From a virus, in the IMG/VR virus record IMGVR_UViG_3300010370_000149, positions 1 through 30,988 of that record: a stretch of 30,988 nucleotides of DNA. One strand, 5' to 3'. This document shows, one piece after another, positions 4,018 to 30,988 of this stretch; the first letter of the stretch is position 1, and the number at the start of each line of letters is the position of its first letter. A program made the position numbers and the translations under genes. The notes below the pieces were generated by a model. The model had not been told where the DNA came from, did not search any database, and was given only the letters and a program-made list of their open reading frames with translations.

Positions 4018-4347
4018 TTATTCGTTGTCTGGTTGTGTATCATATAACCAATCCAATTTAAGCATGTCTTCAGTAACGTCTTTCTCGATTATGCTCAATC
4101 CTTCTTTTGGCAGCCATGGATCAACTCCTTCATCTTCATATGCCTCGATAACGGTCACATATTGTATCATTGCGATTTTTCGCAGCAATATCCTTATGTG
4201 ATAATATGTGTGATACAATTCGATGCTAGAATCCTTTACTTTTGTCAATTCATCGAGTTTAGCAATCACCTGTTGTTTAGTTTGCTCATTGATCTCAACG
4301 CGAGTCATCCAAGCAATCATTTTTTGTGCGGTATTATCTTCTTCCAT
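4018..4347 (-). CDS. Orphan 109-residue acidic protein behind a structured RNA
   Basis: No family recognised. The N-terminal 60 residues look helical; the C-terminus is acidic. The gene is clearly more AT-rich than its helicase, nuclease and primase neighbours and has no overlap upstream, unlike most genes here. It is preceded by the 4382-4498 RNA element and contains an internal 9-bp inverted repeat (4161-4169 with 4211-4219). Composition, separation and its own leader suggest a later-acquired gene (moron) or a gene with its own control. The arrangement of structured RNA then small protein recalls type III toxin-antitoxin loci, but the protein shows no ToxN-like feature that I can see. Confidence 0.65.
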   Translation of the reverse strand: MEEDNTAQKMIAWMTRVEINEQTKQQVIAKLDELTKVKDSSIELYHTYYHIRILLRKIAMIQYVTVIEAYEDEGVDPWLPKEGLSIIEKDVTEDMLKLDWLYDTQPDNE

Positions 4348-4381
4348 ATTTTCTCTGTTTTTTGGTTCCTATTCAACAAAA

Positions 4382-4498
4382 AGCCCACTTCTCACGCCAT
4401 CTCGAAAGATTGGAACCCGCACGCAGAGACGTGGCGAGATGACGTGAAAAGTAGGCTGTCTGTAAACTTTCATTTGCTCTGCGTTTATCCGGGTTCCA
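4382..4498 (-). ncRNA. Pseudoknot-capable structured RNA / leader
   Basis: Two sets of long complementary arms interleave. Set A: 4382-4404 with 4435-4457, 23 positions; the three exceptions to Watson-Crick pairing are C/A on the plus strand but G-U in leftward RNA, so the leftward transcript pairs 23 of 23. Set B: 4411-4419 with 4490-4498 (9 bp) and 4422-4428 with 4477-4483 (7 bp), where one arm is the loop of stem A. The last stem is followed by five T residues, so it may also terminate transcription. It could be a trans-acting RNA, an attenuator with alternative folds, or a protein-bound leader of the 109-residue gene. Confidence 0.65.
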
Positions 4499-4514
4499 GT
4501 CGGATGCGCGAAAT

Positions 4515-4865
4515 TTATCCCCCGCCCGTAAATTCGTCAAGCAAATTTATTGCGTCGCTAACTGATCGCACTACACCCGCGATTCCCCCGGCATTTTTCA
4601 CGAATTCGATGAAGCGTTTTTGATCTGGTGATACGCGTCCGGATTCGGTTTTGACTTCCATCGCGACGAATACGGCGATCTGTTTGCCGACGTCATCTGG
4701 CGTGATTGTTCGCGTGTGGAATCCGATCAAATCAGATGATCCGACGCACAGGCCGTATTGAACGCGGTTGGTTTTATCAAAACCAACGTTGTTCCGGAAT
4801 AATCGCGCGGATCCAGTGCTGATGGCCGCGTGAATTTCGCGTTGAAGTTTTGTTTCGCGGTTCAT
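4515..4865 (-). CDS. VRR-NUC-type nuclease (junction resolvase-like)
   Basis: 116 residues from the ATG at 4865, chosen because it overlaps the helicase stop as ATGA; an upstream in-frame ATG at 4904 lies inside the helicase gene. Visible PD-(D/E)XK features: VGSSDLIGF (the Asp of the catalytic core), AVFVAMEVKTESGRVSPDQ (the E-x-K pair) and QKRFIEFVKNAGGIAGVVRS, the characteristic VRR-NUC ending. The family acts as nucleases on branched or flapped DNA and commonly neighbours phage helicases. Downstream lies the structured RNA 4382-4498. Confidence 0.85.
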   Translation of the reverse strand: MNRETKLQREIHAAISTGSARLFRNNVGFDKTNRVQYGLCVGSSDLIGFHTRTITPDDVGKQIAVFVAMEVKTESGRVSPDQKRFIEFVKNAGGIAGVVRSVSDAINLLDEFTGGG

Positions 4866-6226
4866 CTCAAATATCCCATTTTCTTCTTCATAAAATAAGC
4901 CCAACCCGGCTTGTAACCTTTCGCGGCTCTGATCTTGTCAATATCTGCAGCGCTTCGAACGTCGTGCAATGCTAACTCAAGCGGGGCGGCTTTGATAGCT
5001 TCGATTTCGATCAATTCACCTTCGATCTGTTTCAATTCGCGGATTCGTTTTTCGTCAACGTGTCCGCATTCCGGGCATGTCGTCATTTCCCGCGGGTGCA
5101 TTGCGTAACACCGCTTACATTGAACATGCGTTGCGGGTTCGTTCTTTTGGCCCTTCTTTTTTTTCTCGATGCCGTCAAGCGACCATTCGCGGGTGTCCTC
5201 GGCGAGTCCGTGGGTGAGCAGGTTCCCAACGTGGTCAAGGATCACGGCTTTCTTGTCAGTGGCGGGCCGTAATACCCGCCCGATCTGTTGAAGGTGCAAT
5301 CCCAGCGAAGTCGTCGGCCGTAGCAGGATCGCGGCCTCGGCGCTAGGTAAATCGAAACCTTCCTCGATGACGCTGACCGATGTCAGAATTTTGATCCGTC
5401 CTTCCGTCAAATCATCGATGACTTGCTTGCGTTCCTGGTTGGTTTGTCCACCGTGAATGATGCCGGCAGGAATGCCTGAATTCTGGAATTGCTGCCTGGT
5501 GTTCTCGGCATGCTTAAGATTCACGCAGAACACCACCGCGCGCGAACCGTTGCAAATCCGCGCGTAATGTTCCACCGCGTCACCCAGAACGGCGCGCGTA
5601 TCCATGCGCTCGGCCAGTTGATCGGCAGCGTAATCGCCCATCCGTTTTTTCACGCCGTCAATATTTGCGCGCATTGGTAATGAGAAATACCGCGGCCTGA
5701 CTAGGTGGCCGTTTTTCATGAGCCATTCGACCGACGGCCCCATGATGATTTTTCCGAAATAATCACTCAGGCCCTTACCGTCAAGTCGGGCCGGTGTCGC
5801 GCTGAATCCGATCTGCACCGACCTCGGGAATGCGCGCATGATCGATGCGTAAGTGTTGCTAACTGCATGGTGGCATTCGTCCACGATGATCAGTTGCGGC
5901 TCTTTGATTTTGTCAATGCGTCGGCTGATCGTCTGAACCATGCCGATCTGAACAAGCGCCATCGGATTCGGTGTGACGCCGGGCATGATGATACCATGCC
6001 CGACGTCGAAGCGTTTCAGCGTCGCCGATGTCTGGGTAACAAGTTCGCGACGATGAACCAGGATAAGAACGCGATTGCCAGCGGATGAACTACGGTGTGC
6101 GATGTAGCAGAAGGTCGCGGTCTTCCCGGATCCAGTAGGTGAACAAACAAGCGGGTTTCTGATGCCGCTTTTGATGCACCCGTGGATCTCGTCAAAGAGT
6201 GTCTGTTGGTAGTCGCGGAGGATCAT
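4862..6226 (-). CDS. SF2 DEAD/DEAH-type helicase with C-terminal zinc ribbon
   Basis: 454 residues. Motif I SPTGSGKT (29-36), motif II DECHH (116-120), motif III SATPAR (142-147), motif V region VIEEGFDLPSAEAAI (287-300) and motif VI QQIGRVLRP (313-321) are all present, so this is a complete superfamily 2 ATPase. A zinc ribbon (Cys370, Cys373, Cys384, Cys387) follows. Comparable phage helicases act in replication or recombination with a VRR-NUC nuclease, as here. The start overlaps the methyltransferase stop (ATGA). Confidence 0.9.
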   Translation of the reverse strand: MILRDYQQTLFDEIHGCIKSGIRNPLVCSPTGSGKTATFCYIAHRSSSAGNRVLILVHRRELVTQTSATLKRFDVGHGIIMPGVTPNPMALVQIGMVQTISRRIDKIKEPQLIIVDECHHAVSNTYASIMRAFPRSVQIGFSATPARLDGKGLSDYFGKIIMGPSVEWLMKNGHLVRPRYFSLPMRANIDGVKKRMGDYAADQLAERMDTRAVLGDAVEHYARICNGSRAVVFCVNLKHAENTRQQFQNSGIPAGIIHGGQTNQERKQVIDDLTEGRIKILTSVSVIEEGFDLPSAEAAILLRPTTSLGLHLQQIGRVLRPATDKKAVILDHVGNLLTHGLAEDTREWSLDGIEKKKKGQKNEPATHVQCKRCYAMHPREMTTCPECGHVDEKRIRELKQIEGELIEIEAIKAAPLELALHDVRSAADIDKIRAAKGYKPGWAYFMKKKMGYLR

Positions 6227-12085: not shown

Positions 12086-12304
12086 AATACCCGCCAAAGT
12101 GCGCATTGTTAAGAGGCGTGGCGGGTCTGCTAAAATTGCCCCTCAACTAGGCGGGCAAGCTAGGTCGTCACCATCATTGCTTGCCTCCAGGCATGGAGCC
12201 TGTTAACCTAGTATCAGGGCTGACGCAATGCGCCGGTGGAGAAATACTGAGCAGTCTGGCCGCTGTTCTAACTCGCGCCAATAATGCGCGGATCACTGAT
12301 AATG
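12086..12304. other. Structured intergenic region between converging units
   Basis: No convincing gene in about 220 bases. Complementary arms are dense: 12101-12108 with 12226-12233 (8 bp, enclosing about 117 bases), 12154-12160 with 12179-12185 (7 bp), 12160-12165 with 12206-12211 (6 bp, competing with the previous one), 12188-12192 with 12198-12202 (5-bp hairpin), plus the terminator-like stem 12089-12126. A small RNA or a two-sided transcription stop is possible. A TTG-initiated 60-codon frame on the plus strand (12181-12363) overlaps the 3' end of a leftward gene and is not believed. Confidence 0.45.
12089..12126 (-). terminator. Likely terminator of the leftward late/lysis transcript
   Basis: In leftward RNA ACCCGCC (12126-12120) pairs with GGCGGGT (12095-12089) and is followed by ATTTTATTTT. 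The 24-base loop is longer than in a typical intrinsic terminator, so the call is moderate. The site would stop late transcription before it runs antisense through the regulator genes. There is no U-run in the rightward direction. Confidence 0.45.
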
Positions 12305-24159: not shown

Positions 24160-24594
24160 TTATTGGTTGATGAGTTTGTCCCAGTGTTTCGCGCGGAATT
24201 CGTTGCGCTCCTGGGGAGATTTTAAAGAATTGTATTGGTCGCGGATCGACGGTGTGGATTCAGCGCCGACGTCTTCCAACGCAGGAACACCGGCGGTGGC
24301 GAGAATTTCAGCAGCGCGGGATTCGACCGATGCTTTCACCGTTTCGAGTTCGCCTTTCAGCGTTTCAAGTTCGGCGGTAGCTTCGTTGAACGACGCTTCG
24401 AATTGTGCTTTCGATTCGGCTTCGGCTTTAGCTTCGGCCAGTTCGCTGAGTGCCACAGAAAGATCATTTTGAGCTTCGGCGAGCGATGCGGTGATTTTGG
24501 AAATCTGATTTTCTGCATCAGCCAGTGATGCTTCCAATCCGGAAACCTTTTCCACGAGTGCCGCGTCGGGTTTGAATTTGTCGAGAATACTCAT
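24160..24594 (-). CDS. Possible separately translated scaffold protein (internal start)
   Basis: Starting at Met304 of the protease gene (ATG at 24594), 144 residues: MSILDKFKPDAAL, then a long coiled coil (about protease residues 315-398) rich in Ala, Glu and Lys, then a short C-terminal end (RDQYNSLKSPQERNEFRAKHWDKL) like the capsid-binding ends of scaffolds. A near copy of the pre-start motif lies just upstream (24607-24617). In lambda the scaffold Nu3 is likewise made from an internal start in the protease gene C. Confidence 0.6.
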   Translation of the reverse strand: MSILDKFKPDAALVEKVSGLEASLADAENQISKITASLAEAQNDLSVALSELAEAKAEAESKAQFEASFNEATAELETLKGELETVKASVESRAAEILATAGVPALEDVGAESTPSIRDQYNSLKSPQERNEFRAKHWDKLINQ

Positions 24595-25503
24595 TGCACT
24601 AGTTTTCGTGTCAAAAATTTCATCTGCGAAACCCATTTCGACCGCGTCTTTTGCGCGAATCCACGTTTCGGCGAGCATCATTTTTCGGATGTCGTCTTTG
24701 TCTTTCTTCGTGCGTTCCGCGTAGATTGCCGCGATGTCGTCGCTGATTTCGTCCAGCATGTCGGCAGTCTTGCGAAGTTGCCCCGCGTTGCCATGTTGCC
24801 CGGCGCTTGCGTCGTGAATCATGATCCGGCCATTGCTGGCGATCTGGATCCGGTCGGCGGCCATGGCAATCACTGACGCCATCGATGCGGCCATCGTGTT
24901 AATCTTCGCCGTTACTTTGACACCACGGGCCGAAAGTTCGCGCATCGCGTTGTAGATCCGGTAGCCATCAAATACGCTGCCACCGGCTGAGTGGATTTCG
25001 ATTTCGAGCGTATCAACCGCGCCGTCCGCGGATGCGACCACGTCACCGAATGAATAGCAGGCTTCGACGGCTGCTTGTCCGTAAACCTTGTCGATCTGTT
25101 CGATAACTTCATCCACGCTAAGTTTGTGGACGCTGTCTGTGAGTTTGACCTTCGCGGCCTTGTTTTCGATCTCAATCATATTGTTTGCTTCGAGTTGTTT
25201 TTGTTTTGAGTTTGCCCACGATTGACCAGCGTCGCCGCCCCAGAGCGCCCATGCGATGCGTCCGGCTGATGGATAACCATCTTCACCTGGTCGGAATCCT
25301 TCGGCTTGTTTATCCACTTCGTGACGAGCGAAATATGAAACCATTCGCCCAATCGTTTCGGGTGATAGATTCGTTCGATTGCTGATGTCACGCGCGCGGG
25401 CCACGCCGACTTCGGTACCGCCACGATTGTACTCACGCCGCCATTCAAGGCCGCGCGTGGCTTCCTGTGCCATCTCGTCAGTTGGTTGTAGGTTGACTGC
25501 CAT
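24160..25503 (-). CDS. Prohead protease (ClpP/S14 type) with C-terminal scaffold
   Basis: 447 residues. Residues 10-100 form an extra domain (GLEWRREYNRGGTEVGVARA, RPGEDGYPSAGRIAWALWGGDAG pattern) often found in phage head-protease regions. The protease core spans about 125-300: HSAGGSVFDGYRIYNAM, then MAASMAS with catalytic Ser207, IMIHDASAG with His230, and a conserved Asp further on (ClpP-like triad). Residues 312-398 are coiled coil, followed by a scaffold-like end. It cleaves scaffold and itself during head maturation. It overlaps the portal gene by 26 bases. An ATG at residue 109 is an alternative start for the protease without the extra domain. Confidence 0.88.
   Translation of the reverse strand: MAVNLQPTDEMAQEATRGLEWRREYNRGGTEVGVARARDISNRTNLSPETIGRMVSYFARHEVDKQAEGFRPGEDGYPSAGRIAWALWGGDAGQSWANSKQKQLEANNMIEIENKAAKVKLTDSVHKLSVDEVIEQIDKVYGQAAVEACYSFGDVVASADGAVDTLEIEIHSAGGSVFDGYRIYNAMRELSARGVKVTAKINTMAASMASVIAMAADRIQIASNGRIMIHDASAGQHGNAGQLRKTADMLDEISDDIAAIYAERTKKDKDDIRKMMLAETWIRAKDAVEMGFADEIFDTKTSAMSILDKFKPDAALVEKVSGLEASLADAENQISKITASLAEAQNDLSVALSELAEAKAEAESKAQFEASFNEATAELETLKGELETVKASVESRAAEILATAGVPALEDVGAESTPSIRDQYNSLKSPQERNEFRAKHWDKLINQ
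24607..24617 (-). promoter_or_regulatory. Pre-start motif variant inside the protease gene, copy 5
   Basis: TTTTTGACACG in the leftward sense, within coding sequence and 12 bases (one more than elsewhere) before the internal ATG at 24594. The match despite coding constraints is the best hint that the ATG is used. Confidence 0.55.
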
Positions 25504-27239: not shown

Positions 27240-27250
27240 GCGTGTCAAAA
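27240..27250 (-). promoter_or_regulatory. TTTTGACACGC pre-start motif, copy 4
   Basis: Starts one T after the stop TGA of the large terminase; 10 bases to the ATG at 27229. Confidence 0.7.
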
Positions 27251-30975: not shown

Positions 30976-30988
30976 ATGAGGCCGACAC
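30976..30988. repeat. Terminal direct repeat, right copy
   Basis: Exact copy of bases 1-13. If the ends join, the HNH gene end and the ParB-like start are separated by about 90 bases holding one copy of this sequence, the likely packaging-cut or circularisation point. Confidence 0.8.

Follow-up and report, generated by a model that had tools for sequence, protein, structure and literature searches.

The locus analysed here raises the question of which function is served by the structured stretch between a nuclease gene and an orphan gene in the replication module of a phage. A preliminary description had placed an RNA pseudoknot at positions 4382–4498, built from a 23-bp stem interleaved with a second pairing of 9+7 bp. 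The window, i.e. the whole stretch of DNA that was analysed, is a virus record of 30,988 bases encoding a GpA-type terminase, a lambda-type portal, a ClpP-type protease, a tape-measure protein, Mom and SSB, together with a YqaJ exonuclease, a C5 methylase, a DEAD/ResIII helicase, a VRR-NUC nuclease and a Toprim/DUF5906 primase-helicase. Within the replication module the annotated genes are read leftward, and the element indeed has the VRR-NUC gene on one side and the AT-rich orphan gene on the other (Table 1). The orphan protein could be assigned to no Pfam or PHROG family, and no relative of it was found in IMG/VR or among phages; structure prediction yielded an all-helical model of low confidence, which matched nothing among solved structures at E ≤ 0.001.

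Because the best relative found for the primase (68–69% identity over the helicase half) sits in a metagenome-assembled genome titled Akkermansia muciniphila (L065), the host of the phage is probably a member of the Verrucomicrobiota. Relatives of the terminase were up to 100% identical, but their available contigs do not cover the primase or nuclease genes. One contig from another sample with an identical terminase (L050) starts at approximately the same base as the window end, which suggests a physical genome end at position 30988.

Table 1. Features of the element and its surroundings, with positions in the window.
Feature	Position	Strand	Basis
VRR-NUC nuclease gene, directly upstream of the hairpin element	4515..4904	-	domain match
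Sigma-70-like promoter match TTGACG-17-TAAATT, would start RNA just before A	4512..4540	-	promoter scan
A segment, 5′ half TGGAACCCG, pairs with loop 4411–4419	4490..4498	-	repeat search, duplex energy
A segment, 3′ half ACGCAGAG, pairs with loop 4421–4428	4477..4484	-	repeat search, duplex energy
34-codon ORF across the hairpin, MKVYRQPTFHVISPRLCVRVPIFRDGVRSGLFVE	4369..4473	-	ORF list, codon score
5′ arm of the 23-bp stem (leftward RNA)	4435..4457	-	repeat search, folding, shuffles
A-bar, loop segment CTCTGCGTGCGGGTTCCA, complementary to A and A′	4411..4428	-	repeat, motif and energy searches
3′ arm of the 23-bp stem, three G–U pairs with the 5′ arm	4382..4404	-	repeat search, folding, shuffles
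U5 run at the stem base, terminator-like tail	4378..4382	-	sequence
A′, third motif copy GGAACCAAAAAACAGAG	4353..4369	-	repeat, motif and energy searches
Orphan gene, presumed regulated	4018..4347	-	109 aa, AT-rich, coding-like codon use

In the leftward RNA, the centre of the element folds into a hairpin whose stem is the 23 bp originally described (4382–4404/4435–4457), or 28 bp when the outer helix is counted. Its extended arms (4376–4404/4435–4463) are 29 nt long, 83% complementary and separated by 30 nt. With a score of 60 this hairpin is by far the strongest of the window, the runner-up scoring 38, and after dinucleotide shuffling of the whole window (60 runs) the maximum averaged 33.6 (sd 3.1; highest 45). 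The complete 23-bp hairpin was computed at –42 kcal/mol, and the leftward strand folded with a z-score of –4.2 that was equalled in 0/200 shuffles, in support of a structured element on that strand. At the three mismatches of the stem (4386, 4391 and 4397) the left arm has a C where the other arm implies a T, resulting in C–A oppositions in rightward RNA and G–U pairs in leftward RNA. The preliminary description had read this asymmetry as a sign that structure is kept in the leftward transcript; the mismatches do become G–U pairs only there, but as an argument this is weak, with p-values of 0.125 (one direction) or 0.25 (either direction) if each transition mismatch is assumed to land on either strand at random.

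On the leftward strand, the base of the stem runs directly into the U5 that had been pointed out at 4382–4378. A GC-containing stem (base GCC/GGC) immediately followed by such a run is typical of intrinsic terminators, whereas the loop of 30 nt exceeds the 3–8 nt of such structures, and a terminator scan with a loop limit of 8 did not call the hairpin. The stem also exceeds the approximately 20 bp of double-stranded RNA that mark an RNase III site, and a stem of such length would be an expected substrate of that enzyme. Matches to sigma-70-like promoters were no more frequent here than at chance level.

The second pairing connects the loop of the hairpin with the A segment upstream, and the repeat search recovered the alternating order of the arms of the two pairings that had been described. 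The 9-bp part of this pairing is as first described (4411–4419/4490–4498), while its other part comprises 8 bp (4421–4428/4477–4484) rather than the 7 first counted. The loop:A duplex was computed at –28 to –31 kcal/mol (best with flanks –30.6), an energy matched by 3/2000 shuffles of the upstream stretch and by 1/2000 shuffles of the loop. In addition, the repeat search showed that the loop can also pair with 4352–4372, a possibility missed in the preliminary description. This third complementary site, A′, lies just ahead of the orphan gene, with 5 nt between its end and the ATG (4347), and its complementarity to A-bar consists of two blocks of 6. Pairing of the loop with the A′ region (4352–4370) was computed at –19.0 kcal/mol, which was matched in 17/2000 and 14/2000 shuffles.

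The helices thus interleave in the manner of an H-type pseudoknot, with linkers of 19, 6 and 6 nt and helices of 17 and 23 bp. Since the 6-nt linker at 4410–4405 would have to span the 17-bp helix, we consider it doubtful that both helices form in full at once. For an incomplete RNA consisting of A, the 5′ arm and A-bar alone, the lowest-energy structure pairs A with A-bar and leaves the 5′ arm in the loop between them (–29.6 kcal/mol).

The three sites share the motif GGAACC-N(2–14)-CAGAG, of which the 31-kb window contains three copies, all within 4353–4497, against 0.13 expected; this number was reached in 0/100 shuffles. A (4477–4497) and A′ (4353–4369) carry the motif on the leftward strand and A-bar (4412–4428) carries it on the opposite strand, as pairing needs. 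The half-site spacings of the copies are 6, 6 and 10. A′ and A-bar have the N6 spacing and CAGAGA in common, A and A-bar have longer flanks in common, and since the shared traits differ between the two pairs, A-bar fits A and A′ in different ways. When the motif could be chosen freely, a comparable inverted triple was found in 9/2655 other 160-nt stretches, around half of them palindromic; the pattern, which was recognised post hoc, is uncommon (~0.3%) and not unique.

Protein-coding function across the hairpin was assessed from codon use. The 34-codon ORF starts after the CAGAG of A and stops just before the GGAACC of A′, and its codon score of –0.07 falls under the 5th percentile (0.013) of the real genes of the window. 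Every frame across the hairpin region scored negative, whereas the orphan gene (0.137) and the nuclease gene (0.188) scored as coding-like, and the 34-aa product had no match among phages. Judged by codon use, neither this ORF nor a 55-aa ORF that also spans the hairpin was accepted as a gene; the 34-codon ORF is probably no protein gene, and the region is treated here as non-coding.

No family or relative of the element emerged from the collections searched. In agreement with the earlier remark that it resembles no known riboswitch or leader, a search of 4300–4560 against Rfam 15 returned nothing at the gathering score, and raising the limit to E = 10 added nothing beyond sub-threshold matches to microRNA hairpins and CRISPR repeats. 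A blastn search of the element against phages and plasmids revealed no true relative, and a DNA search of 388 Verrucomicrobiota genomes gave matches at chance level only. In IMG/VR, the loop pattern matched 31 times, never with the enclosing stem, and the A pattern 47 times, never with a second copy within 400 nt, while the full stem pattern had 0 matches in both genome_contigs (257 Gb of genomes) and IMG/VR. Two other element types were rejected: the GGTTCCARTC sequence resembles a T-loop, but ARAGORN found no tRNA and the scanned ORFs included no integrase, leaving no case for a tRNA or attachment site; nor was there a reverse transcriptase or transposase among them to accompany a retron or mobile-element RNA.

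The place of the element nevertheless has a counterpart. In two related IMG/VR phages (L014 and L015), VRR-NUC is likewise followed by an intergenic stretch, a small gene and a Toprim primase (with one extra gene before the primase in L015), and after VRR-NUC both carry a strongly conserved structured RNA of ~75 nt with two hairpins (L014:162–240 and L015:3131–3208). Within it, a 58-nt block is identical except for one gap, whereas the aligned flanking DNA is 77–85% identical. This new-looking structured RNA matched no Rfam family, and its covariance model found no match in the window and weak matches (22–23 bits) in 6/289 genomes. The window and these two phages therefore have the place of a structured element in common, but neither its sequence nor its structure. 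Because another conserved structured element resides there, a regulatory RNA following VRR-NUC is plausible.

The location of A′ at the start of the orphan gene shifts the likely function of the element from a free-standing RNA towards cis-acting control. The reading we favour, tentatively and at somewhat less than even confidence, is that of a cis-acting intergenic RNA in which a terminator- or RNase III-type hairpin holds either A or the orphan-gene start in its loop. The leftward replication transcript would then carry the long hairpin and U-run as a cis-acting element that ends or trims the helicase-nuclease message, acting as a partial terminator, an RNase III-type processing stem, or both. 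A, being made first during transcription, would pair with A-bar, for which A′ would be the competing alternative partner. In an intact transcript with A present, A-bar would be occupied and the orphan-gene start free; if A were cut off, or if the RNA started after A, A-bar could cover A′ and orphan-gene translation would decrease. This more specific proposal, a two-state switch controlling the orphan gene, where a stable hairpin stays folded while its loop exchanges the decoy A for A′, as set by processing or start of the transcript, we consider doubtful. Occlusion of the CAGAG site may in fact matter little, because most genes of the phage have no clear Shine-Dalgarno sequence.

A simpler possibility is that nothing more than a long terminator or RNase III hairpin separates the nuclease and orphan genes, with incidental complementarities in its loop. 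The near-uninterrupted stem with its outer helix, the U5 tail and the operon direction would all suit such a hairpin, and no pseudoknot is needed; yet the three motif copies would go unexplained, as would loop pairings that were each matched in at most 17/2000 shuffles, and we rate this explanation as rather unlikely. Somewhat less probable still is a free-standing small RNA of ~130 nt (~4505 to 4376) that would bind a protein or act in trans on phage or host messages via its 30-nt loop. Its compact pseudoknot-like shape fits, and its ends would be delimited by the promoter-like match at 4540–4512 and the U5 run, but promoter matches occur here at chance level, and the only other A-type motif copy in the window is A′, in cis. 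One variant, the antidote RNA of a type III toxin–antitoxin system offered in the preliminary description, proved unsupported. Type III RNAs (ToxI; abiF RNA, RF03085) are likewise structured, sometimes pseudoknotted and phage-related, but the element has no Rfam match, no direct repeats were found in 4340–4540, and its neighbours, VRR-NUC and the family-less orphan gene, include no toxin-like gene.

The inverted sites and the location within the replication module could also point to an element acting as DNA, with A, A-bar and A′ as protein-binding sites together with a cruciform, for example as a replication origin. The varying half-site spacing would be unusual for one protein, and an origin-like array is present elsewhere. 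The primase gene ends in TGACGGGTATGATGGGTG, followed by a 77-nt spacer (70% A+T) and CACCCGTCACACCCGTCA (1864–1752, leftward strand), so that in this array two tandem 9-bp iterons (TGACGGGTA and TGATGGGTG), which begin at the stop codon of the primase gene, face two inverted copies across the spacer. This arrangement, with iterons of different sequence, recurs at or near the 3′ end of the gene at 11/20 other Verrucomicrobiota primase-family loci (e.g. L070, L092, L100, L110 and L068), with 15–18 of 18 matches between the arms and spacers of 50–76 nt. For SaPIs, origins have been described in which the iterons follow immediately after the gene for the initiator helicase (PMC7581432). An arrangement of tandem iterons flanking an AT-rich stretch past an initiator gene is found at 1864–1752 and not at the hairpin, which makes 1752–1864 the probable replication origin and the element at 4382–4498 probably not one; a DNA-level role of any kind seems quite improbable. 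Hardly more credible is a relic of an inverted duplication or of a small inserted element, without present function. The site has no sequence relatives in any collection searched, and a perfect inverted duplication decayed by three transitions would look like this stem, but there is no evident target-site duplication, the genomes searched hold no other copy of the full stem, and the loop complementarities would again be left unexplained.

The cis-acting hairpin that we favour can be compared with known systems. The sib site of lambda and the R-sites of T7 are RNase III hairpins of phages, and the element resembles them in being a long hairpin between genes of a phage operon, by which the message could be cut or ended. 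Its loop, however, is much larger and complementary to sequences on both sides. Translational attenuators of the ermC type are leaders with competing segments, in which, as here, one segment is complementary both to an upstream segment and to the region where the regulated gene starts. In the present element, by contrast, the competing segment lies within a hairpin loop, the hairpin need not be undone, and the short ORF is not coding-like.

Elsewhere in the window, 7.6 kb from the hairpin, an abiF RNA (RF03085, 51.4 bits) was found at 12089–12125 on the leftward strand. RNAs of this type are known as antidotes to AbiF toxins (PMC12373285). The window and six related records yielded no Abi_2 gene. 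A related phage carries an abiF RNA after the same gene but on the opposite strand (L072:15219–15255), and one is also present in 14/289 Verrucomicrobiota genomes. This RNA might be a phage-borne antidote against host AbiF defence. Separately, TTTTGACACG occurs on the leftward strand at 27250, 24616, 23013, 21570 and 17122, at a fixed 21–22 nt ahead of a late-gene ATG, and TTTTGACA occurs 6 times in the window against 0.95 expected. The TTTTGACACG signal is kept in four relatives (L050, L052, L060 and L077), appears once in L065, and also marks an internal start within the protease gene (24160–25503), as expected for a nested scaffold gene. It is possibly a late promoter or translation signal.

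To our knowledge, RNA regulation by phages of Verrucomicrobiota has been little studied. If confirmed, the element would be a compact natural regulator of unusual layout, and would point to the stretch following VRR-NUC as a place where such phages keep structured RNAs.
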